This document shows positions 5,152 to 29,261 of a DNA stretch of 33,373 nucleotides, one piece after another; the stretch's first letter is position 1; every line of letters starts with the position of its first letter. The stretch covers positions 1 through 33,373 of the forward strand of contig LUZO01000048.1 in NCBI GenBank assembly GCA_001603685.1. The letters run 5' to 3'. This DNA is from Bacteroidales bacterium Bact_23. Lineage in GTDB: Bacteria; Bacteroidota; Bacteroidia; Bacteroidales; Lentimicrobiaceae. The notes beneath the pieces are model-generated. The model made no database searches and was not told the origin of the DNA. It saw only the letters and a program-made list of their open reading frames with translations. The translations under genes were made by a program, and so were the position numbers.

Positions 5152-5285
5152 CATCGGGACATATTTTTCTCAGCCGCAAACATTTGAGTTACTTGTATTT
5201 GACTAATAATCAACAGGTTTAGTATTGTTTCTCAATCAAGATAAGAATGTCCGGTATGGGAGAAATCAGGATTAAAGTATTTGAA

Positions 5286-7121
5286 ATGAAATTTTTAAGA
5301 ATTACCATCATCCTGGTTGCGGCTTTCGGTTTATTACCTGTAAATCGCCTCTTCAGTCAGGTTGAACCGGCTGCAGCCGATACAAGCCGCAGTGAATTTG
5401 AATTTATCAAAGACGATTTTATAGCTGCATCTCTCGACAGTCTGGCCAACCTGAAATATTTTCAGGGCTTTGAATGCCCCGATGATGAGACCCTGAAGAA
5501 TGTATTTGGCTTCACACCAGGTTTTGTTCCTGTTTATGCCGATTCGGTTTATTACAACCGCCTGAAGGTTCTGAGTGCCGGCTCGCCCATAAATCTTACA
5601 TACAACCAGTATGTTAAGGATTACATTGAACTGTATGCCATTAAGAAAAGAGGGTTGACCCAGCGTGTTATGGGCCTTGCCCAGATTTATTTCCCCATGT
5701 TCGAGGAGCAGCTCGACCGCTTCAATATGCCGCTTGAGCTGAAATATCTGGCCATCGTGGAATCGGCGCTCAATCCGGTTGCAAAATCCAGGGTTGGCGC
5801 AACAGGTTTATGGCAGTTTATGTATGGAACCGGCAAAGCTTACAAACTGAATGTAACTTCACTGGTTGACGACCGCCGCGATCCGCTGAAATCGACCATT
5901 GCAGCGTGCGAACACATGAGCGACCTCTACAGAATGTACAACGACTGGCTGCTCGTTCTCGCCGCCTACAATTCCGGTGCCGGCAATGTAAACAAGGCAA
6001 TCCGCCGTTCGGGAGGCAAGATGGACTTCTGGCAGATAAGACCATTCCTGCCCCTTGAAACCAGAGGTTATGTACCCGCCTTCATTGCAGTAAACTATGT
6101 GATGGAATACGCCGCCGAACACAACCTCAGGCCGGTAAGCCCACTGTATCATCATTATGAAATTGATACGGTTATTGTAAAGGATGTGCTGTCGTTCAAC
6201 CAGATATCATCCATGCTCAACATCCCGGTCGAAGAGATCGAATTTCTGAACCCGGCCTATAAAGGGGGAATCATTCCTGCCACCAGGGACAACACTTATG
6301 TGCTGAGGCTTCAGAAAAAGAACATTCCCGATTTTGTAAACAACGAAGCTCAATTGTATGCTTTCCGCTCACAAGCCGAGATCGAGAAAGAACAGGTGAT
6401 GGCAATGATGAAAACCGTTACTCAGGCCGAATATCACAAAGTAAAAAAGGGTGAGTCGCTGGGAAGCATTGCCGGCAAGTACCGTTGTTCGGTAAACGAT
6501 CTGAAACGGTGGAACAAGCTTAAATCAACCAACATCCAGATTGGCCAGCGGCTGATTGTAAGGCCTGAAAGCACACAGCAGGTCAGCTATGCGCAGGCAA
6601 AACCCAAACCCGCCCCCGCTGCCGCTCCTCAGCCGGCAAAAGCCGAAGAACCTGCGAAGGAGACCGTTACAGCTACCACTTCGGAAGAAGTTGCAGCCAA
6701 CACAGCAGCCGACAGCCTGCCGGCTGAAACAGAAGTTAAAATCCATAGAGAAAATAAATACCACAAGGTACGGCCGGGCGAAAATCTCGGAAAGATCGCT
6801 GCAAAATACAATACAACCATTGCAGCTATTCAGAAACTGAACAATATGAAAACTGCTGACATTCAGGCTGGTAAAAACCTGATTGTAGGGGTTACCGAGA
6901 TAAAAACAACCGTTCAGCAGGCCGATACAGGTAAAATATCCAAACCCGGGGATAAAAAAGACACCTATATGTATTATACTGTTCAACAGGGCGATACGCT
7001 GTGGAAAATTGCCAACAAATACGAAGGCGTTACCGTTGACGATATCAAACAGCTCAATAATATTACCGACGAAAAGCAGATAAAACCCGGACAAAAATTA
7101 AAGGTAGTCCCCGTATCCTGA
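5286..7121 (+). CDS. mltD: Membrane-bound lytic murein transglycosylase D-like protein with three LysM domains
   Basis: SLT domain (ALNPVAKSRVGATGLWQFMYGTGKAYKL, LAAYNSGAGNVNKAIRRSGG). Three LysM repeats beginning YHKVKKGESLGSIAGKY, YHKVRPGENLGKIAAKY, YYTVQQGDTLWKIANKY. Met at 5286 starts a signal peptide. Confidence 0.9.
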   Translation: MKFLRITIILVAAFGLLPVNRLFSQVEPAAADTSRSEFEFIKDDFIAASLDSLANLKYFQGFECPDDETLKNVFGFTPGFVPVYADSVYYNRLKVLSAGSPINLTYNQYVKDYIELYAIKKRGLTQRVMGLAQIYFPMFEEQLDRFNMPLELKYLAIVESALNPVAKSRVGATGLWQFMYGTGKAYKLNVTSLVDDRRDPLKSTIAACEHMSDLYRMYNDWLLVLAAYNSGAGNVNKAIRRSGGKMDFWQIRPFLPLETRGYVPAFIAVNYVMEYAAEHNLRPVSPLYHHYEIDTVIVKDVLSFNQISSMLNIPVEEIEFLNPAYKGGIIPATRDNTYVLRLQKKNIPDFVNNEAQLYAFRSQAEIEKEQVMAMMKTVTQAEYHKVKKGESLGSIAGKYRCSVNDLKRWNKLKSTNIQIGQRLIVRPESTQQVSYAQAKPKPAPAAAPQPAKAEEPAKETVTATTSEEVAANTAADSLPAETEVKIHRENKYHKVRPGENLGKIAAKYNTTIAAIQKLNNMKTADIQAGKNLIVGVTEIKTTVQQADTGKISKPGDKKDTYMYYTVQQGDTLWKIANKYEGVTVDDIKQLNNITDEKQIKPGQKLKVVPVS

Positions 7122-10134: not shown

Positions 10135-10369
10135 GCATGAAGCCTTAATCCTTGAAACCGTCAGGAATCGGAAAGCGAACCTGCAGAGGACATAAAACCC
10201 AGTAACGGCAGGTGCTACAGCGCATGCAGATCCCAAAAGAAAACTTTTGGCACGCAAATTGCAAAAGGGGCTCCGTCCTATTTTTCAGGGCATGGTAATT
10301 ATTGGCAGATGCCTGTTGCCTGATAAGTTAACATGGTTCATCTGCTTGGTATTCACCAAATTAACACAA

Positions 10370-11779
10370 ATGCTCAACAAGCTTTTAGTAAAAACAAGCG
10401 GTGCATTACTGATCTTTCTAATTCTGCTCATTCCCCAGTCCTGTACATTTTCCGTCAGGAATGGTTCCACTACTCCAGATGACTTTGGAAATACTCTGAA
10501 AGAGATCCAGCAACGTGGCGAACTTGTAGCCATTACCGATAACGACCCGTTTAATTACATCAGCGATTTCGGTGATTTAAAGGGTTATCAGTACGAGATG
10601 CTGAAAAATTTTACAGCAACTCTTGGAGTGGAGCTCAAGATAATTGTAGAGCCAAATCCCCACAAAGCACTGGTTTACCTGAAACAGCGTAAGGCCGACC
10701 TGGTTGCCATGGAGCTTCCCGCAACCAATGAGGATGTAAATGGTCTGGTTTTTTCCGAACCTTTATTCACCTCATCACAGGTACTGGTACAGCGTAAGTC
10801 TGTTCCAGGCAAAGCAGTTATCCGTGACCTCGCAGAGCTGAAAGACAAATCCATTGTTCTACCCACGGGAAAACAGAAACAATTCTATCTTACTGATATT
10901 CAGCATGAAACCTCATACGATGCAAACATAACCGGTGTCGATCATGTAAGCATCCCCGATCTTATTGAGGCAGTTGCACTGAAGGAGGCCGATTATACCA
11001 TTGCTTATGAACATACTGCAAAAGCGATGTCGCAAATTTATCGCAACCTTGATATCCGTACAACTGTTAGCCCGGAGCTCGAAGTTTCGTGGATAGTGCG
11101 CAAAGGTTCGGCCAACCTGCTGAATGCAATCAACACCTGGATTGACGACAACAAAGATGGCCGTGAGTTTGCAGGTGTTTATTCGAAATACTACAAAAAT
11201 CCCCGTCAGGCCAGACTGGCACTTGGGCACTCCACAAAGAATCAGGCCATTTCTGATTACGATGACATAATCCGCGAGTCAAGCCGCATTATCAACTGGG
11301 ATTGGCGTTTGATTGCAGCACTGATTTACAACGAGTCGAAATTTAATTCAGATGCCGTTTCCAACCGCGGAGCCTTCGGACTGATGCAGCTAATGCCGCA
11401 CACCGCAAAACGCTTTGGCGCCGATGTGAACTCCTCCCCTGCCGAACAGATTTCAGCCGGCCTGAAGCTGATCAAACACCTCGACAACGCCTTTGCCAGG
11501 AGTGTTCCAGACCCTAAAGAGAGGAAGAAGTTTATCCTGGCAGCATACAACATCGGCCTCGCCCATATTCTGGATGCCCAGAAACTGGCTGAGAAACATG
11601 GTAAAGATCCGGCTGTATGGTATGATAATGTGGAATACTTCCTTCTTGCCAAATCAGAACCACAATATTACAACGATCCGGTTGTTAAATTTGGCAAGGT
11701 AAAAGGCACCGAAACACAGCGTTTTGTACGCAATGTACTGGAAAAATACGATCATTACAAAACTCTGGCATCGCTTTGA
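10370..11779 (+). CDS. mltF: MltF-like lytic transglycosylase (SBP_bac_3 domain plus SLT domain), lipoprotein
   Basis: MLNKLLVKTSGALLIFLILLIPQSC lipobox. Periplasmic solute-binding-like region (RGELVAITDNDPFNYISDFGDLKGYQYEMLKNFTATLGVELKI), then SLT motifs LIAALIYNESKFNSDAVSNRGAFGLMQLMPHTAKRFG and FILAAYNIGLAHILDAQ. Confidence 0.92.
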   Translation: MLNKLLVKTSGALLIFLILLIPQSCTFSVRNGSTTPDDFGNTLKEIQQRGELVAITDNDPFNYISDFGDLKGYQYEMLKNFTATLGVELKIIVEPNPHKALVYLKQRKADLVAMELPATNEDVNGLVFSEPLFTSSQVLVQRKSVPGKAVIRDLAELKDKSIVLPTGKQKQFYLTDIQHETSYDANITGVDHVSIPDLIEAVALKEADYTIAYEHTAKAMSQIYRNLDIRTTVSPELEVSWIVRKGSANLLNAINTWIDDNKDGREFAGVYSKYYKNPRQARLALGHSTKNQAISDYDDIIRESSRIINWDWRLIAALIYNESKFNSDAVSNRGAFGLMQLMPHTAKRFGADVNSSPAEQISAGLKLIKHLDNAFARSVPDPKERKKFILAAYNIGLAHILDAQKLAEKHGKDPAVWYDNVEYFLLAKSEPQYYNDPVVKFGKVKGTETQRFVRNVLEKYDHYKTLASL

Positions 11780-19329: not shown

Positions 19330-21033
19330 ATGACTGACAGCAAATCTGTAACCGAAAATACCGGAGAAAACAAGACACCGGTGAATTTTATCCATGCAAT
19401 CATTGATGATGATATCCGCAACGGCAAGCACGGATCGAGGGTACATACCCGTTTTCCTCCGGAGCCGAACGGCTATCTGCATATCGGCCATGCAAAATCC
19501 ATATGCCTTAATTTTGGTACTGCCCTGAAATACAACGGCAAATGCAACCTCCGCTTCGACGATACCAATCCGGTGAAGGAAGATGTTGAGTATGTTGACT
19601 CCATCCGCTACGATGTCCACTGGCTTGGCTTCGACTGGGAAGGGCGCGAATATTACGCTTCGGACTATTTTCCCCAGCTTTATGAATTTGCCGAAAAGCT
19701 GATTCAGAAAGGCAAAGCCTATGTTTGTGAGCTAACAGCTGAGCAGATTGCCGAACAGAAGGGCTCCCCTACCCGTCCGGGCCAGGAAAGTCCGTACCGC
19801 AACCGCAGCATTGAAGAGAATCTCGACCTCTTCCGCCGTATGAAAGCCGGCGAATTTCCCGATGGCAGCAAGGTGTTAAGAGCCAAAATCGATATGGCAT
19901 CCCCCAACATGCACATGCGCGATCCCATACTTTACCGCATTATCCACACCGAACACCACCGGACCGGCAAGTCGTGGTGCATCTACCCGATGTACGACTT
20001 TGCCCACGGACAGAGCGACAGCATCGAGGGCATCACTCACAGCCTCTGCACCCTGGAGTTTGAGGTACACCGCCCGCTTTACGACTGGCTGATTCAGGAA
20101 CTGGAAATCTTTGCCCCTCAGCAGATTGAGTTTGCAAGGCTGAATATGACCTATACGGTTATGAGCAAGCGAAAGTTGCTGGAGCTGGTCAAGAACAACT
20201 ATGTAAATGGCTGGGACGACCCACGCATGCCCACCATTTCGGGGCTTCGCCGCCGCGGCTACACCCCCGCCTCCATCCGCAACTTCTCCGATATCGTGGG
20301 AGTTGCCAAACGCGAAAATGTGATTGATGTGGGTCTGCTGGAGTTCTGCATCCGCGAGGACCTGAACAAAACGGCCCAGCGTGTTATGGGTGTCATCAAT
20401 CCGGTGAAACTCATCATCGACAACTATCCCGAAGGGCTGACCGAGGAGATGCCATCGGCCAACAATCCGGAAGATCCTGAAGCAGGTATACGCAATGTCC
20501 CATTTTCCAGAGAGTTATACATTGAACGGGATGACTTTATGGAAGATCCTCCAGCAAAATTCTTCCGGCTGGCACCGGGTCGCGAGGTCAGGCTCAGATC
20601 GGCCTACATCATCAGGTGCGAATCGGTGGTAAAAGATCCGGAAACTGGCGAAATTACCGGGATTCACTGCACTTACGATCCCGATACGCTGAGCGGGCGC
20701 CCCGGCAGCAACCGAAAGGTGAAAGGAACCCTGCACTGGGTATCGGCCGCTCATGCCATCAAGGCTGAAATCAGGCTCTACGACAGACTATTTATGACTG
20801 AAGACCCCGAAGATGTACCCGAGGGAGAGGACTACAAGAAAAATCTGAATCCCGACTCGCTGAAGGTGATGACGGGATATGTGGAACCGTTTGTAGCCGG
20901 CACCAAACCTCTCGATAAATTCCAGTTCGAAAGGCTTGGCTATTTCTGTACCGACAGCGACTCAACCCCCGAAAAACTTGTATTTAACCGCACTGTGGCG
21001 CTGAAGGATTCGTGGGCAAAAACAAATAAGTGA
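19330..21033 (+). CDS. glnS: Glutamine--tRNA ligase
   Basis: [73 protein letters not shown]; GlnRS-type beta-barrel anticodon-binding C-terminus. Confidence 0.97.
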
Positions 21034-21399: not shown

Positions 21400-22476
21400 A
21401 TGAAGCGTTTAATTTCCATACTCCTGATTTTCAGCTCTCTGATTGCAAATTCCCAAAGTCTGCTGACTCAGGAACGGGCGTCGCTCTTTTCGAAGATGGC
21501 GCTGAAGTGCATTCATCAGGAGTATCCGAACAAGCCGGGCGAAGTGCTTGGCAGCGATCGCGATGCGCGACCCGTTCGCGATTACCGGCCTGCATTTTAC
21601 GGTTGTTTCGACTGGCATTCATCGGTTCACGGACACTGGATGCTGGTGAAGCTCCTGAAGGAGTTCCCCGGAATGCCCGAGGGCGCCCGCATCAGGGAAG
21701 CCATCGCCAGAAACATCACTCCCGATCATATTTCCGTGGAGGTAAGCTTCTTTCTCGACAGCAACAACCGCAGTTTTGAGCGCACCTATGGCTGGGCGTG
21801 GCTGCTGAAGCTCGCCACCGAGCTACACACCTGGGATGACCCTCAGGCACGGCAGTGGGAAACGGCGCTGCAGCCGCTAACTGACCTGATTGTGGAAAAT
21901 TACATCGGGTTTCTGCCCAAACTGGTCTATCCCATCCGCGTGGGCGAACATTCAAACACCGCCTTCGGGCTTTCATTTGCCCTGGATTATGCCCGCACCG
22001 TGGAAAATACCGCCCTTGAATCGCTGATTGTTACCCGCTCAAGGGATTTTTACCTGAATGATGTGAACTGCCCCATCTCATGGGAGCCTTCGGGTTATGA
22101 TTTTCTCTCGCCCTGCTTTGCTGAAGCCGAACTGATGGCCAGGGTATTGCCCGGAGCTGAATTCAGCAACTGGCTGCACCATTTTCTGCCTTCCGGCGAT
22201 GGCCACCCTTTGGCTATTCTGAATACTCCGGCAAAGGTAAGCGACCGAACCGACGGTAAGCTGGTTCACCTCGATGGCCTCAACTTCTCACGGGCGTGGG
22301 CCTATGCCATTATCGCCCCTAAGCTGAAACCGGAGTTGCGTGAGCCATTCTTTGAAGCGGCCCTAACCCATGTTCTGCACTCGCTGGAAGCCATCAGCGA
22401 CGGAAATTATATGGGAGAGCACTGGCTGGCTTCTTTTGCCGTGTATGCTCTGGATCAGCTGGACAAAATAAAATGA
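21400..22476 (+). CDS. DUF2891 family secreted protein
   Basis: Signal peptide MKRLISILLIFSSLIANSQS. Motifs CIHQEYPNKPGE, FYGCFDWHSSVHGHWMLVKLLKEFP, FERTYGWAWLLKLATEL, GEHSNTAFGLSFALDYA, SGYDFLSPCFAEAELMARVLP. Confidence 0.85.
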   Translation: MKRLISILLIFSSLIANSQSLLTQERASLFSKMALKCIHQEYPNKPGEVLGSDRDARPVRDYRPAFYGCFDWHSSVHGHWMLVKLLKEFPGMPEGARIREAIARNITPDHISVEVSFFLDSNNRSFERTYGWAWLLKLATELHTWDDPQARQWETALQPLTDLIVENYIGFLPKLVYPIRVGEHSNTAFGLSFALDYARTVENTALESLIVTRSRDFYLNDVNCPISWEPSGYDFLSPCFAEAELMARVLPGAEFSNWLHHFLPSGDGHPLAILNTPAKVSDRTDGKLVHLDGLNFSRAWAYAIIAPKLKPELREPFFEAALTHVLHSLEAISDGNYMGEHWLASFAVYALDQLDKIK

Positions 22477-22560: not shown

Positions 22561-24222
22561 TCAAAACTGGAAATAGATAAACGGCTGGAAAGTAGCCGAA
22601 TAGGCCTGATAGCAGATCACTCCCGTGATTACGGCAAATCCGGCCTTTAGCGCAAGCGGGCTTCCGGCCCACAGATTCTCAATTCCTTCCTTTGCCCTTA
22701 CCGGCAGCCAGTGGGTAATGTATCCCAGCAACATCACGATAAAAACCAGCCTGTACTGGTCCAGAACCTTAAGGGCATTTCCCCAGTCCATGTTGGTGGC
22801 AATCTGCCGGTACCAGACCGAGATATGCTCCATGCTTTCACCCCTGAAATAAATCCTGGTGAAGGTAATGAAGGTGAAGGTCAGCATAATTTTCCACATG
22901 ACGGCCAGCCTGTTTTCCGACTGCTCCCAGGGGCTGATGCGGCGCCAGTATTTGTAAACCAGAATGCCAATTCCGTTCAGGCCGCCCCAGATAACAAACT
23001 TCCACGAAGCGCCGTGCCACAGACCGCCAATCAGCATGGTCAGCATTATGTTGATGTTTGTTACAAAATGCTTTCTGGGCTTTTCAAAATCTATGGCAAT
23101 AAGCAGAAAGAGAAATACAATGGGAATTATAATCAGGATGGCAGCCACACTCTTGAATGCCAGTAACACCCCTACAACAATCAGCAGGGTAATCAGAATG
23201 GTGGCCGGGGTCGCTTTCCTGTTTCCGCCCAGCGGAATATAGAGGAAATCCTTCAGGAACGAAGAGAGTGAGATGTGCCATCTGCGCCAGAAATCGGAGG
23301 TATTCCGGGCTTTGTACGGCGAATTGAAGTTTACAGGCAGCCTGAAACCCATCAGCAGCGCCAGCCCGATGGCAATATCGGTATATCCGGAAAAGTCGCC
23401 GTAAATCTGCAGCGAGTAGCCAATGAGCGCCATGATGTTGGTGAATCCCGAAAACATACCCGGCGCATCGAACACCTTGTCCATAAAGTGCATCGCCAGA
23501 TAATCAGCAAATATCATTTTCTTAATTAACCCTTTAAGAATCAGAAATGTACCTGAATTGAAATCCTGAACCGAGATAACGGTAGGCCGGTGTATCTGCG
23601 GGATAAAATCACCGGCGCGAACAATGGGTCCTGCAACCAGTTGCGGAAAGAAGGTGACAAACAGGCCAAAATCGAATATCGATTTCAGCGGCTCAAGTTT
23701 GCCGCGGTAGATATCCACACAATAGGTAATCGTCTGAAAAAGATAAAACGAGATGCCAATCGGCAGAATGATCTTATCCACCGAAAAGTAGTTTACACTC
23801 TGCACCCTGTTGCCCATCTCAGCCAGCCAGTGCGAAACCTGATAATCGGTGCCGAACAGGTAGTTAACAGAATCGACAAAGAAATAGGCATATTTAAAAT
23901 AGCTGAGAATAAACAGGTTAAGCGCCACGCTCAGGGAAACCAGTAGCAGCTTGACCGCCTTGCTTCCGGCTTTGCTGATGCCCGCACCCAGCAGAAAATT
24001 GCTGATGGTGGTAAAAATAAGCAACCCGACAAACAAACCGGAGGTTTTATAATAGAAAAAGAGGGAGACAATCAGCAGATAGACATTCCGAAGCTTGATT
24101 TTGCGATAGATTACCGCAAATATCAGGTATATTACCGTGAAGAATATCCAGAAATCGGCCTGGGTAAAGATGAGCGGAAACTCATCCGAAAAAGTAAATA
24201 TCTCCTTCAGCCTATTATTCAT
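22561..24222 (-). CDS. MBOAT family O-acyltransferase (AlgI/DltB-like)
   Basis: Multi-TM. GYSLQIYGDFSGYTDIAIGLALLMGFRLPVNFNSPYKARNTSDFWRRWHISLSSFLKDFLYIPLGGNR; catalytic-His motif GGLWHGASWKFVIWGGLNG. Confidence 0.95.
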   Translation of the reverse strand: MNNRLKEIFTFSDEFPLIFTQADFWIFFTVIYLIFAVIYRKIKLRNVYLLIVSLFFYYKTSGLFVGLLIFTTISNFLLGAGISKAGSKAVKLLLVSLSVALNLFILSYFKYAYFFVDSVNYLFGTDYQVSHWLAEMGNRVQSVNYFSVDKIILPIGISFYLFQTITYCVDIYRGKLEPLKSIFDFGLFVTFFPQLVAGPIVRAGDFIPQIHRPTVISVQDFNSGTFLILKGLIKKMIFADYLAMHFMDKVFDAPGMFSGFTNIMALIGYSLQIYGDFSGYTDIAIGLALLMGFRLPVNFNSPYKARNTSDFWRRWHISLSSFLKDFLYIPLGGNRKATPATILITLLIVVGVLLAFKSVAAILIIIPIVFLFLLIAIDFEKPRKHFVTNINIMLTMLIGGLWHGASWKFVIWGGLNGIGILVYKYWRRISPWEQSENRLAVMWKIMLTFTFITFTRIYFRGESMEHISVWYRQIATNMDWGNALKVLDQYRLVFIVMLLGYITHWLPVRAKEGIENLWAGSPLALKAGFAVITGVICYQAYSATFQPFIYFQF

Positions 24223-25510
24223 CGCTCCTTTTTATTAGTCTGATCAACGATTCCGGCTCTCTTCCGGTGCTTCTCTCCCACTGTCCGATAAGTGCGACGG
24301 CAAGCAGGTCGCCTTTCAGGTTGTAGCCGGTCAGGGTAAAGTGAATCCTGTCGTAAACCATCAGTTTCCGGTTATACCACCGCTGCGAAGAGCCCAGGCC
24401 ACCCATCACGGCATAAAAATCCCATACCGCCTGCCTGTGTTTCCTGGCCAGTTCATGGATTACCTGCTGCTGAATCGCAGTATTTTTATTGGGATATTTT
24501 TTTCGGTAATAGGAATCATTTGGCACCGTCAGCAAAATGGCGCATTCCGGATTCACCGCCTGAATAACGGAAATCAATGAATCGTAGTAGCTTCTGAACC
24601 TCTCTGCATCAAAATCTCTGGTGCTTGCGTCGTTTGTTCCAATGGAAATGATAAAAAGATCGGGTCTGAAAAGCTGCAGTTGCCGGTTGAACAGCGTACA
24701 TCTGGAATAACTCCTGAAGCTGGCGCCGTTTACTCCAATGGAATTGTAGGAAATGCCGTGAAATCCGTTCTTCAGTTCCATTCCGCTGAGACTCAGAAAA
24801 GCATTGTCAATGCTGTCATTTTTACTGATTAACAGCCCTGCACTTGAAACGGTATCGTAGAATTCAATATCGCAATAGCCTTTCTCCGGATTGAAAATCA
24901 GGCTCCTGAATTTCAGCAACGAATCGGAAGGAGCAACGGTATAACCCGAGGAGTCGGACTCGATAAAAAGCCTGATTTTATCGAAGGTATATGGTGCTTT
25001 AACATTTACCTTTCTGTTGGCTGAAATTCTCAGGGTGTCGGAATCGCCGTCGAGTGTAACGGAAATCCCGCACAAACCCCACAATCCGGAATCGCCGCTT
25101 CTGGACGACCTCTCGCCTTTCCACTGCTTTCTGTCGCCGGTAATGGCATAATTTGCCGGGTTATTGGTGCCGACCAGGCGGTAGGGAAAAATCAGCCCGC
25201 GCGCAGAGCCGGTAAATGGCGTGATGTTACGAAGATATTCTCTTACCCTGTTCGGATATATATCGGCCTGAATATGGGAGCCGCCGATATGAAATATCTG
25301 AATATCAACCGGGTACCCATTATACAAGCTATCAAGCTTATGAAAAAATCTGTTGAAATTTTCCGAGGAATCGGCAAAGGCGAATGTGTTGAACTCTTCC
25401 TTTATCAGGCTTCCGTTTACCTGCCTGATGCTATCCAGAATAAAGTGCTGGGCATTCAGCGAAGCCGAAAATAGAAGCAGTAAAAGTGCTGGTAGTATCT
25501 TCTTTTTCAT
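24215..25510 (-). CDS. SGNH/GDSL hydrolase-fold protein (exported), probable O-acyl transferase/esterase partner of MBOAT
   Basis: Signal peptide MKKKILPALLLLLFSASLNAQ. Block I variant IFHIGGSHIQAD, IISIGTNDAS, C-terminal DRIHFTLTGY (DxxH). Overlaps the MBOAT gene by 8 nt. Confidence 0.85.
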   Translation of the reverse strand: MKKKILPALLLLLFSASLNAQHFILDSIRQVNGSLIKEEFNTFAFADSSENFNRFFHKLDSLYNGYPVDIQIFHIGGSHIQADIYPNRVREYLRNITPFTGSARGLIFPYRLVGTNNPANYAITGDRKQWKGERSSRSGDSGLWGLCGISVTLDGDSDTLRISANRKVNVKAPYTFDKIRLFIESDSSGYTVAPSDSLLKFRSLIFNPEKGYCDIEFYDTVSSAGLLISKNDSIDNAFLSLSGMELKNGFHGISYNSIGVNGASFRSYSRCTLFNRQLQLFRPDLFIISIGTNDASTRDFDAERFRSYYDSLISVIQAVNPECAILLTVPNDSYYRKKYPNKNTAIQQQVIHELARKHRQAVWDFYAVMGGLGSSQRWYNRKLMVYDRIHFTLTGYNLKGDLLAVALIGQWERSTGREPESLIRLIKRSDE

Positions 25511-26949
25511 CGTTTCAGATCAAGGTAAAGGGAAGTAAAAAAGAGTTCACCTATGATGCGCGCTCCCTTTGGCGAAAAGTGGGTGTAGTCGCTGGCTGCA
25601 AGGCCCTGTTCCACCCATGCCGGCATGGAATTCAGGCCACCCATTGCTTTGTACATACTCCAGTAAGCCCATCCGTTCCTGATGCTTGTTTCCCTGAGTT
25701 TCTCATCCAGGTAGGGCAGCAGGGGATAGGTGACCATTTTACCGTTAATCATGGTACTCATATCACCCGGGCCTATAAACATGATCATCGCCTGTGGAAT
25801 CAACCCTTTCACCCGGTTTATGTTAACCGCAAGCGAGCGCATATAGTGATCAACTGAGAGCGAGTCCTTAAGATAGGGCACGGAATTTCCACCATACTGA
25901 AAAATAATGACTTTCGGATTCAGCTTCTGAGCCATAGCCCTGAAACTACTCATATTCAGTTTGTTGAATATGGTTCCCGAAGCGCCCCGCATGGCGATGT
26001 TATCCAGCATGATCCCCCTGCTTCCGTCAAGTGTAAGTCCGTAAACATCAGGGCTTTGCTCCGCTTCAAATTCCATGGTAATCTCTGCCGGGGTTCCGCC
26101 GGCCCTGATTTCTAAACAGTGGTAGGCACTGTCGGCGATAAGCGGGGTATGGCTGATCACCGAATCGTTGCTGCGGACAAGCACTCTGGCCGGTTTTCTC
26201 AGGTTTCCGTAATGCATCCTGATGTGGTTGTAGCGGCGAAGGGCAGGGTAGGAGCGGTATGAGGGTTTTATCCTGATAAAAGTGGATAGAGAGGATTTCT
26301 GTTTTTCAGCTGAATCACTGATAATTGCAGCCTTTCCGGTGAATCTGGAGAGTGTGGTGTAAAGGCCGTAGTTGTTGTTGCTTACCGGCTGCTGGGTCGG
26401 GTCAAAAATGGCATACCTCTCCCAGTTTTCACTTACGGTAACCTCAGCCGAAATCTGGTTATAAACCTGCTTCACCGGTATAAACCCCGGACCACTGCCT
26501 CCGAAAATGCCCTGAAGCCGGTGACGGAGATAGCCTGAAATGCGATCGCCCTCCAGTTGCGAATCGCCAAAATGCAGAATCCTGCATGATTCGCCTTCAA
26601 ACAGGGAGAGCAATTGCTGCGGAAAATCTTTGTCAGCCCCCGGATAACTGATTCTTTCCAGTTGCGAAGTATCTATTTTCGAGAAATCGGGAGGGGCGAT
26701 AACGGTTTCAACCTCGGGTGTACCTACCAGGGTAATGATGGTATCAACACGCACATTAACCTCTGCAACCACTTCATTATTATCACCCAAAAAGGTTTCA
26801 ATGGTCGGATACTTTATCATGGATCCGCCTACTGAAAACCCATCTTCGCTGCGCATGCCTTCCAATACTACCCGGCTACTGAAAAGCGTTGCCAGAAGCA
26901 ACCCACCCATCACCAGTAAAATGAAAAGTGCAATTTTCCAGGGTTTCAT
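25507..26949 (-). CDS. SGNH/GDSL hydrolase-like membrane-anchored protein
   Basis: N-terminal TM anchor KIALFILLVMGGLLLATLFSSRVV; block I ILHFGDSQLEGDRISGYLRHRL; FQYGGNS; C-terminal SDYTHFSPKGARIIGE (DxxH). ATGA-type 4-nt overlap with the next gene. Confidence 0.85.
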   Translation of the reverse strand: MKPWKIALFILLVMGGLLLATLFSSRVVLEGMRSEDGFSVGGSMIKYPTIETFLGDNNEVVAEVNVRVDTIITLVGTPEVETVIAPPDFSKIDTSQLERISYPGADKDFPQQLLSLFEGESCRILHFGDSQLEGDRISGYLRHRLQGIFGGSGPGFIPVKQVYNQISAEVTVSENWERYAIFDPTQQPVSNNNYGLYTTLSRFTGKAAIISDSAEKQKSSLSTFIRIKPSYRSYPALRRYNHIRMHYGNLRKPARVLVRSNDSVISHTPLIADSAYHCLEIRAGGTPAEITMEFEAEQSPDVYGLTLDGSRGIMLDNIAMRGASGTIFNKLNMSSFRAMAQKLNPKVIIFQYGGNSVPYLKDSLSVDHYMRSLAVNINRVKGLIPQAMIMFIGPGDMSTMINGKMVTYPLLPYLDEKLRETSIRNGWAYWSMYKAMGGLNSMPAWVEQGLAASDYTHFSPKGARIIGELFFTSLYLDLKR

Positions 26950-27170: not shown

Positions 27171-27695
27171 TCAGTCTTCTGTGGCCTGTTCGTTATCTCC
27201 GGAATAGAGTTCCAGAAACTCATAACCATTTCCACAGTGATCGAGGAATTTGATAAAGTCCTTAAAATCAATAACCAGCGATGCGGTATTGTCGTTGGGA
27301 TGGAAGCTGATTCTGGGCAATTTCTTCAGGTTTTCATCAAGAAACAGATAAACATGATGTGCGGTATCATGTATCAGTCCAAAGGGTGAAACAGAGCCGG
27401 GGATAAGGCCAAGATAGCGATTCATGCGCTCGGGCGAGGCAAAGCTGAGCTTTCCCTGTTTCAGCATCTTTTCCAGGTCGTGAATTGCCATCGACTGGCG
27501 ATGGTCGAAAATTACCAGGTAATGCCGGTTTCCTTTATGGTTCCGGAAGAAAAGGTTCTTGCAATGAGAGGTTTCCTTGATGTCCTTCCAGTATTGCACC
27601 GCAATTTCAATGGTTGGTGCAGGCGGATGTTCATGGTACTCAAAGGATATTCCGAGTTCATCCAGTTTCCGGTAAAGCAGGGGATCTCCGTTCAC
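27171..27695 (-). CDS. YbaK/ProXp-family aminoacyl-tRNA deacylase (prolyl-tRNA editing PrdX-like)
   Basis: GISFEYHEHPPAPTIEIA...SHCKNLFFRNHKGNRHYLVIFDH...LSFASPERMNRYLGLIPGSVSPFGLIHD is typical of the ProXp/PrdX family. Confidence 0.88.
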   Translation of the reverse strand: MNGDPLLYRKLDELGISFEYHEHPPAPTIEIAVQYWKDIKETSHCKNLFFRNHKGNRHYLVIFDHRQSMAIHDLEKMLKQGKLSFASPERMNRYLGLIPGSVSPFGLIHDTAHHVYLFLDENLKKLPRISFHPNDNTASLVIDFKDFIKFLDHCGNGYEFLELYSGDNEQATED

Positions 27696-27743: not shown

Positions 27744-29261
27744 TCAGGCCAGGGCTTCCTTTGCCTTCAGGATGCGGTTAATGGCTTCTTCCTTTCCCAG
27801 CGTGGCGATGATGGCTGCCACTCCCGGCCCGAAGCTGCCACCCACTAATGACAGACGAAGGGTATTCATCACCTGCCCCATGCCCAGGCCGTTCTCCTGG
27901 ATAAAAGCTTTGATCCGTGCCTCAAGGTTATCCGCCGAAAAATCGCTTGTTTCACGCAGCAGGGCGGTAATCCGGTCGAGCAGGGCAGGGGTTTCAGGTT
28001 TCCAGAACTTCTGAACCACCTTTTCGTCATAGCTTTCCGGCGCCCGGAAGAAGAACCACGACTGCTCCCAAAGGTCGGGAATCAGTACTGCCCGTTCTTT
28101 GGTGAATCCAACTACCGTTTCAATATAGCTTTTCTCCGCTTTTATTCCTTTTTCAGCAAGCTGTTTATCAAGCAGTTCCGAAACATATGAGTTATCGAGT
28201 GCCGACAGGTAGTGGTGGTTGAACCATTTTGCCTTTTCGGGATCGAATTTCGAACCCGATTTCCCCACCCGGTCAATGGTAAAGAGGTCAACCAGTTCAT
28301 CCATGCCAAATACCTCCTGCTCGGTTCCCGGGTTCCATCCGAGAAGGGCGAGCATATTGATAAATGCCTCGGGCAGATAGCCTGATTCACGGTAACCCGA
28401 CGACACCTCGCCGCTTTCCGGATCGGTCCATCGCAGCGGAAATACGGGGAAACCAAGACGATCGCCGTCGCGCTTGCTCAGTTTGCCGTTGCCATCGGGT
28501 TTCAGCAGCAACGGCAGGTGGGCAAACTGCGGCGCTTCCCAGCCCAGGCTTCTGTATAGCAAAACATGCAGAGGCGCTGAGGGAAGCCACTCTTCGCCGC
28601 GGATTACATGGGTAATCTCCATCAGGTGGTCGTCAACGATATTTGCCAGATGATAGGTGGGCATGCCATCCGATTTGTAAAGCACCTTGTCGTCAAGCCT
28701 GGAAGTATTGACCACCACCTCGCCGCGGATCAGGTCGTTTACCTTAATCTCTTCATTTTCAGGAATCAGCATTCTGATTACAAAGGGTTCCCCGCTGTTC
28801 AGCCGGCGCTCTGTCTCCTCATTACTGAGTGTCAGAGAGTTGCACATTTCATTCCGGGTAAACAGGTCATACTGCGGAGTGGCTACTCCCCTGGCTTTCA
28901 GCCGTTCGCGCATCTCATCAAGCGCTTCGGGCGTATCAAAGGCATAATAGGCATGGCCATCCCTGACCAGTTGTTCGGCATACTGACGGTACAACTCCTT
29001 GCGCTCACTCTGCCGGTAGGGAGCGTGCGGGCCACCAACCCCGACTCCTTCATCATATTCAATGCCGCACCACTTCAGCGATTCAATGATGTACTCCTCA
29101 GCTCCCGGAACATAACGGGTCTGATCGGTATCTTCAATGCGCAACAGGAATTTACCGTTGTTCTTCCTGGCAAACAAATAGTTATACAAAGCCGTACGAA
29201 CGCCGCCAATATGCAGCGGTCCGGTGGGGCTGGGTGCAAATCTTACTCTTACTTCTTTCAT
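27744..29261 (-). CDS. gltX: Glutamate--tRNA ligase
   Basis: [75 protein letters not shown] (KMSKS). Confidence 0.97.

Follow-up and report, generated by a model that had tools for sequence, protein, structure and literature searches.

Whether lysozyme and lytic transglycosylases can cleave the bacterial cell wall depends on the O-acetylation of its peptidoglycan. This modification has been studied in Neisseria and Campylobacter; for the Bacteroidota, which are major gut bacteria, we found a single study, a survey from 2005. A three-gene cassette in Bacteroidales bacterium Bact_23 (contig LUZO01000048.1, positions 1 to 33,373, hereafter the window, from a 3.7-Mb Bacteroidota draft genome) raises the question of which protein transfers acetate to the wall in this phylum, given that PatB, the transferase in Neisseria, is missing. 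Our analysis indicates that the three genes very probably form a peptidoglycan O-acetylation/de-O-acetylation (O-acetylpeptidoglycan, OAP) cassette of the Bacteroidota type, ape1b-ape1c-pat, in which a membrane-anchored relative of the esterase Ape1 would probably act in PatB's stead. Cassettes of this kind are already known; the identity of their transferase seems to be an unexplored question.

All three genes lie on the minus strand. SGNH1 (25507-26949; 480 amino acids) occupies the position that Weadge et al. called Ape1b, SGNH2 (24215-25510; 431 amino acids) that of Ape1c, and the MBOAT (22561-24222; 553 amino acids) that of pat, with the role of PatA. The open reading frames fill exactly the span proposed by an earlier sequence-only reading, and both overlaps that it described can be read directly: a stop/start overlap of 4 nucleotides, ATGA, between SGNH1 and SGNH2 (25507-25510), and one of 8 nucleotides, ATGAATAA, between SGNH2 and the MBOAT (24215-24222). 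The nearest congener loci, filed in the public set as Lentimicrobium sp. or as Bacteroidales metagenome-assembled genomes, encode proteins with 70% (SGNH1), 68% (SGNH2) and 81% (MBOAT) identity, so these are real genes rather than chance reading frames. In a promoter scan, the number of sites did not exceed that in shuffled sequences.

Both SGNH proteins belong with Ape1. SGNH2 exceeded the Pfam cutoff for PF13472 (54 bits; cutoff 32.9), SGNH1 alone stayed below it (21 bits), and in phmmer comparisons with solved structures each matched Neisseria meningitidis Ape1 (E 1.7e-20 for SGNH1). Profiles built from 22 relatives of SGNH1 and 18 of SGNH2 again retrieved N. meningitidis Ape1 first (E 3.5e-40 and 7e-47, respectively) and Campylobacter jejuni Ape1 second (1.9e-21 and 8.7e-35); among the solved structures, neither profile matched a PatB. 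The AlphaFold2 models (mean predicted local distance difference test score 84 for SGNH1 and 91 for SGNH2) gave the same two Ape1 structures as top Foldseek matches, aligning over nearly the whole Ape1 chain with target-normalized TM scores of 0.74-0.82. Both models include the beta-rich module that is inserted after motif I in solved Ape1.

Each of the two proteins has a full Ser-His-Asp triad. SGNH1 begins with a transmembrane helix (residues 3-22; 26884-26943) that has no obvious cleavage site and is followed by a low-confidence linker (57-78); its nucleophile is Ser130 in GDSQ (26560-26562), where the Ser is invariant, and its block V reads D454-Y-T-H457 (25579-25590), with invariant Asp and His. 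SGNH2 has a signal-peptide-like N terminus (residues 1-20, MKKKILPALLLLLFSASLNA/Q; 25451-25510) whose helix ends in SLNA/Q, with Q21 present in all 30 aligned sequences. Its nucleophile is Ser78 in GGSH (25277-25279), in which the Ser and the next His are invariant, and its block V is D387-R-I-H390 (24341-24352).

The third protein is a clear member of its family (PF03062, 88 bits; cutoff 27). Its catalytic-type His403 (23014-23016) is invariant and lies in GGLWHGASW, and a C-terminal FIYFQF containing Tyr550 (22564-22581) fits the acyl-shuttle motif FxYxxF, to be compared with FIYANF of N. gonorrhoeae PatA (PMC12148441). The Tyr of this motif is the acetyl shuttle in C. jejuni PatA, and N. 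gonorrhoeae PatB takes acetate from an acetylated FIYANF peptide (PMC12148441). The two PatA-type marks, the His in WHG and the C-terminal FxYxxF, are both present; since other MBOATs share them, they are not specific. Pfam, the Ape1 homology and the N-terminal helices therefore bear out the sequence-only description of a membrane-anchored SGNH protein, a secreted one and an MBOAT with GGLWHGASW.

What, then, does the cassette modify? Weadge et al. named OAP clusters in 2005 and reported the order ape1b-ape1c-pat in Bacteroides fragilis, B. thetaiotaomicron and Porphyromonas gingivalis, together with peptidoglycan O-acetylation of 69% in B. fragilis and 27% in B. thetaiotaomicron (PMC1199599). 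Our cassette comes from the same phylum and agrees in having three genes, in their order and in their placement on one strand; the protein families also agree, as judged through B. finegoldii and Parabacteroides comparators. In B. finegoldii the same triad has a resistance-nodulation-division (RND) efflux operon upstream, matching the efflux transporter reported upstream of the cluster in Bacteroides (PMC1199599), which ties the present triad to the published one. The window copy differs in lacking this operon, in having GGSH rather than GDSH as motif I of SGNH2, and in the segment that follows that motif. Published Ape1c lacks about 100 amino acids there, a mark of the subfamily and not of the cluster (PMC1199599), whereas SGNH2 of the window keeps a beta-rich insert, with about 180 residues from Ser78 to block II that are beta-rich in the model. 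B. finegoldii SGNH2 (305 amino acids) is without the insert and P. distasonis SGNH2 (443 amino acids) has it; we read its presence or absence as variation within the family.

The triad is also conserved as a unit, a point that the sequence-only reading had put up for checking. Among named Bacteroidota loci chosen for SGNH1, 66 had at least 3.5 kb after this gene and could be counted, and 65 of them carry the full triad in order. We also surveyed 148 genomes of Bacteroidales, almost all of which were at least 90% complete. SGNH1 is present in 78 and SGNH2 in 67, with contiguous triads in 49. Seven further genomes hold the SGNH genes without detected linkage (G053, G072, G080, G084, G139, G146 and G162, the last without a strong MBOAT match). 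Even where they are dispersed or separated by contig ends, the genes thus tend to be retained as a set. Its distribution is patchy: within the window's own genus SGNH1 occurs in 13 of 19 genomes and is missing from some that are 93-96% complete. Six genomes (G061, G071, G091, G138, G159 and G163) encode a cassette-like MBOAT (>420 bits) and neither SGNH family.

Several links tie the family to peptidoglycan. LysM domains occur on 4 of the 18 SGNH2 relatives, and 23 of the 80 named loci have an SLT/LysM gene of lytic-transglycosylase type directly upstream of SGNH1 (gap -70 to +95 nucleotides). The lytic transglycosylase LtgA of Neisseria associates with Ape1 in a complex and makes the esterase more active (PMC7083599). 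Given that both SGNH proteins are of Ape1 type and that the genes keep the OAP order, the likeliest acceptor in this organism is the N-acetylmuramic acid (MurNAc) of peptidoglycan, and one of the SGNH proteins most likely removes acetate. The proposal of an envelope-glycan O-acylation system thus survives in its core, an MBOAT-SGNH system conserved as a unit. Two of its parts give way: an acceptor that could not be named, for which peptidoglycan is now likely, and a pair of SGNH enzymes divided into a donor or transfer enzyme and an acceptor-specific or relay enzyme. The sequence-only reading had also allowed for a match to a characterized esterase family with an unrelated role; the proteins do match such a family, and its role lies in the same pathway.

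Four observations weigh against assigning the cassette to peptidoglycan. The published acetate figures for Bacteroides are tied to the ape1b-ape1c-pat genes by no mutation. No SLT/LysM gene lies upstream of the window copy, so this neighbor is evidence for the family and not for the copy studied here. The shuttle motif FxYxxF stands at the end of all four MBOATs of the genome and is no marker of substrate. In the MBOAT tree, PatA forms its own clade (100/100) and the Bacteroidota MBOATs form a separate group (68/89). Orthology of the MBOAT with PatA is accordingly unsupported, as it falls outside the PatA clade, and the tree does not resolve its grouping with other MBOATs.

This placement, and the fact that MBOAT-SGNH pairs modify many polymers (PMC12148441), would suit O-acylation of a capsule, lipopolysaccharide, exopolysaccharide or other envelope glycan through a relay like that of AlgI, AlgJ and AlgX. 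The alginate system resembles the cassette in joining an MBOAT with the same type of Tyr-shuttle motif to two SGNH-fold partners. However, AlgJ and AlgX belong to a different, circularly permuted SGNH family (PF16822), which neither SGNH1 nor SGNH2 matched, and there are no alginate genes; with an Ape1 fold in its place, we reject an AlgJ/AlgX-like relay. Three other MBOATs are encoded in the genome, one (C71) with an AlgX-family partner, one (C191) with a weakly DUF1574-like partner and one (C356) without a recognized partner. The genome thus has a separate AlgI/AlgX-like system, at C71, and it is distinct from the cassette. In keeping with the sequence-only reading, none of the 19 window proteins that we scanned matched a glycosyltransferase or a family for polysaccharide synthesis. 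With the LysM and lytic-transglycosylase links pointing to peptidoglycan, we consider another glycan an improbable acceptor.

Still less probable, to the point of being very unlikely, is that the group which the MBOAT delivers to a wall polymer is not acetate but, for example, an amino acid or a longer acyl group. The DltB D-alanine transferases of teichoic acid D-alanylation share the MBOAT fold and are the closest solved MBOATs by sequence, and DltB is the sole NCBIfam match. That match lies far under the cutoff, dltA/dltC-like carrier genes were not found beside the MBOAT, and the window's MBOAT carries the shuttle motif in its own chain, whereas the Dlt system has it on a separate DltX. 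The Ape1 relatives are acetyl esterases, and the acetate measured in Bacteroides peptidoglycan is ester-linked.

With peptidoglycan as the likeliest acceptor, the question becomes which protein transfers the acetate. In the patA-patB-ape1 clusters of N. gonorrhoeae and C. jejuni, an MBOAT ending in FxYxxF likewise accompanies an Ape1 esterase and a second SGNH protein; the window has a further Ape1-family protein where these clusters have PatB, a different gene order and an MBOAT outside the PatA clade. We built a PatB profile from the middle gene of the N. gonorrhoeae cluster (L166), confirmed as PatB against PDB 7tjb (E 1.8e-152), and five further homologues. It found nothing in 147 of the 148 Bacteroidales genomes, a single marginal match (27 bits) in the remaining one, and no match in the window's genome. 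The SGNH tree places PatB apart from all Ape1-family proteins, and in its block II the Gly is replaced by Ser or Asn (type I turn), whereas SGNH1 (RG322) and SGNH2 (NG262) keep the esterase-type Gly. Profile, tree and block II together rule out that either protein is PatB. Because PatB is absent although Bacteroides peptidoglycan is acetylated, its task probably falls to one of the two Ape1-family proteins.

Three features favor SGNH1 as the stand-in. First, like PatB it carries an N-terminal membrane helix ahead of the SGNH domain, a likeness that bears on how it might work and not on family membership. Second, SGNH1 lies next to the MBOAT with SGNH2 absent in 10 of the 148 Bacteroidales genomes, and SGNH2 with the MBOAT but without SGNH1 anywhere occurs in none. 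Two pairs among these ten share a genus and one SGNH1 (in G143) is short, leaving about eight independent cases; G018, of the same genus as the window, is a further case of SGNH1 and MBOAT without SGNH2. Third, the residue after the catalytic Ser departs from that of Ape1: as a pattern in 38 sequences, it is His in all seven proteobacterial Ape1-family proteins and in 11 of 11 SGNH2, and in none of 14 SGNH1 or six PatB. In the window proteins, the Ape1 motif I, GDSH, appears as GGSH in SGNH2 (Ser-His kept, Asp lost) and as GDSQ in SGNH1 (no His). SGNH2 is the closer relative of Ape1: its profile outscored that of SGNH1 against seven of seven proteobacterial Ape1-family proteins, with which it also groups weakly in the tree (82/73). 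Judged from these sequence comparisons and from the phyletic pattern, SGNH1 is probably the transferase and SGNH2 the peptidoglycan O-acetylesterase.

The same peptidoglycan cassette might instead run with its roles reversed or shared, SGNH2 being the transferase and SGNH1 a membrane-held esterase, or both being transferases. Both proteins are of the Ape1 family with full Ser-His-Asp triads and the block II Gly; SGNH2 is the MBOAT's immediate neighbor in triads, and two genomes (G032 and G035) retain it beside the MBOAT with SGNH1 elsewhere; and ape1b was labeled an esterase in the 2005 paper (PMC1199599). The ten genomes with SGNH1 and MBOAT only, against none of the reverse kind, the closer kinship of SGNH2 with Ape1, including its Ape1-type Ser-His, and the LysM on some SGNH2 proteins, which suits an enzyme acting on the finished wall, make this arrangement distinctly less likely. 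The block II and 'hydrophobic wall' residues were tried as a discriminator between transferase and esterase and were not decisive, as the Gly is kept in both proteins and a Val precedes the His in Neisseria Ape1 too.

Other evidence tells against SGNH1 as the transferase. The PatB profile gave it 3.1 bits (SGNH2, -1.4 bits), which is no match, and its retained block II Gly looks esterase-like on that feature. In Sphingomonadales, an Ape1-family protein stands beside a PatB-like one, so a protein in this position need not be the transferase. We found no literature on mutants or biochemistry of Bacteroidota OAP genes in a search whose coverage mostly excluded subscription papers.

With SGNH1 as transferase, the pathway would run in three steps. 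The MBOAT would move acetyl from cytoplasmic acetyl-CoA via His403 onto Tyr550 of FIYFQF at the periplasmic face. The membrane-anchored SGNH1 would then take the acetyl group on Ser130 and hand it on to peptidoglycan MurNAc at the C-6 hydroxyl, acting where PatB does in Proteobacteria. Finally, the secreted SGNH2, the closer Ape1 relative, would strip acetate from the wall via Ser78, so that lytic transglycosylases could act. The chemistry proposed for the first and last steps is taken over from characterized homologues.

The SLT/LysM proteins encoded upstream of SGNH1 at other loci are unusual in themselves. The catalytic Glu is lost, usually to Leu, in about 16 of the 23 adjacent named loci: it is gone in L101, L105, L106, L107, L118, L120, L122, L124, L128, L130, L131, L138 and L141, the ESALN motif is kept in L126, L132, L133, L140, L142, L144 and L145, and the proteins of L103, L119 and L143 are too divergent for a sure call. 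A Glu-less protein of this kind, joined to an O-acetylation operon, looks from its sequence like a wall-binding or regulatory subunit. The window itself holds two lytic-transglycosylase genes on the plus strand that the sequence-only reading did not mention: an MltD-like protein with SLT and three LysM domains and an intact catalytic-type Glu172 (5247-7121), and an MltF-like SBP_bac_3-SLT protein (10247-11779). They are the kind of enzyme that O-acetylation would control, yet they lie 11-17 kb from the cassette.

The immediate neighbors are of other kinds. Convergent with the cassette is a full-length DUF2891 gene (21400-22476, plus strand; 446 bits) whose product has a signal-peptide-like start; DUF2891 also adjoins one other triad. 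Directly upstream lie genes for a YbaK-like tRNA-editing domain protein (27171-27695, minus strand) and glutamyl-tRNA synthetase (27744-29261, minus strand), and glutaminyl-tRNA synthetase is encoded at 19330-21033; the YbaK-like and aminoacyl-tRNA synthetase genes have no evident tie to the function of the cassette.

Some database records place such clusters in unexpected hosts. CP034120.1 (L099), named Glaciecola amylolytica, a gammaproteobacterial genus, carries a Bacteroidota-type triad with a layout near-identical to that of L102 (Flavobacteriales UBA5869), so that either the triad was transferred or the record is misnamed. Four records filed as plasmids of N. gonorrhoeae or Proteus mirabilis (NZ_CP119142.1, NZ_CP119140.1, NZ_OL790811.1 and NZ_OL790812.1; 2.2 and 4.1 Mb) contain the OAP cluster; they are likely to be chromosomes. 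Complete clusters of the patA-patB-ape1 type also occur on plasmid-typed records of Citrobacter portucalensis (NZ_CP134684.1, 32272-35947) and Acinetobacter junii (CP077416.1), one of them mobilizable, which suggests that peptidoglycan O-acetylation genes can move between species.

For the phylum as a whole, there is perhaps an even chance that a second, membrane-anchored member of the Ape1 family has taken over from PatB, its esterase fold having become an O-acetyltransferase that works with a PatA-like MBOAT, with the SGNH2 esterase as an optional member and, in part of the phylum, a Glu-less protein with LysM and transglycosylase domains added, perhaps as a wall-binding or regulatory subunit. 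Since Bacteroides peptidoglycan is acetylated in the absence of the known transferase, that role should fall to one Ape1-like protein. If this is true, the cassette would help to identify the handful of residues by which a transferase differs from an acetyl-ester hydrolase, and it would be a caution against calling ape1b genes esterases in annotations.

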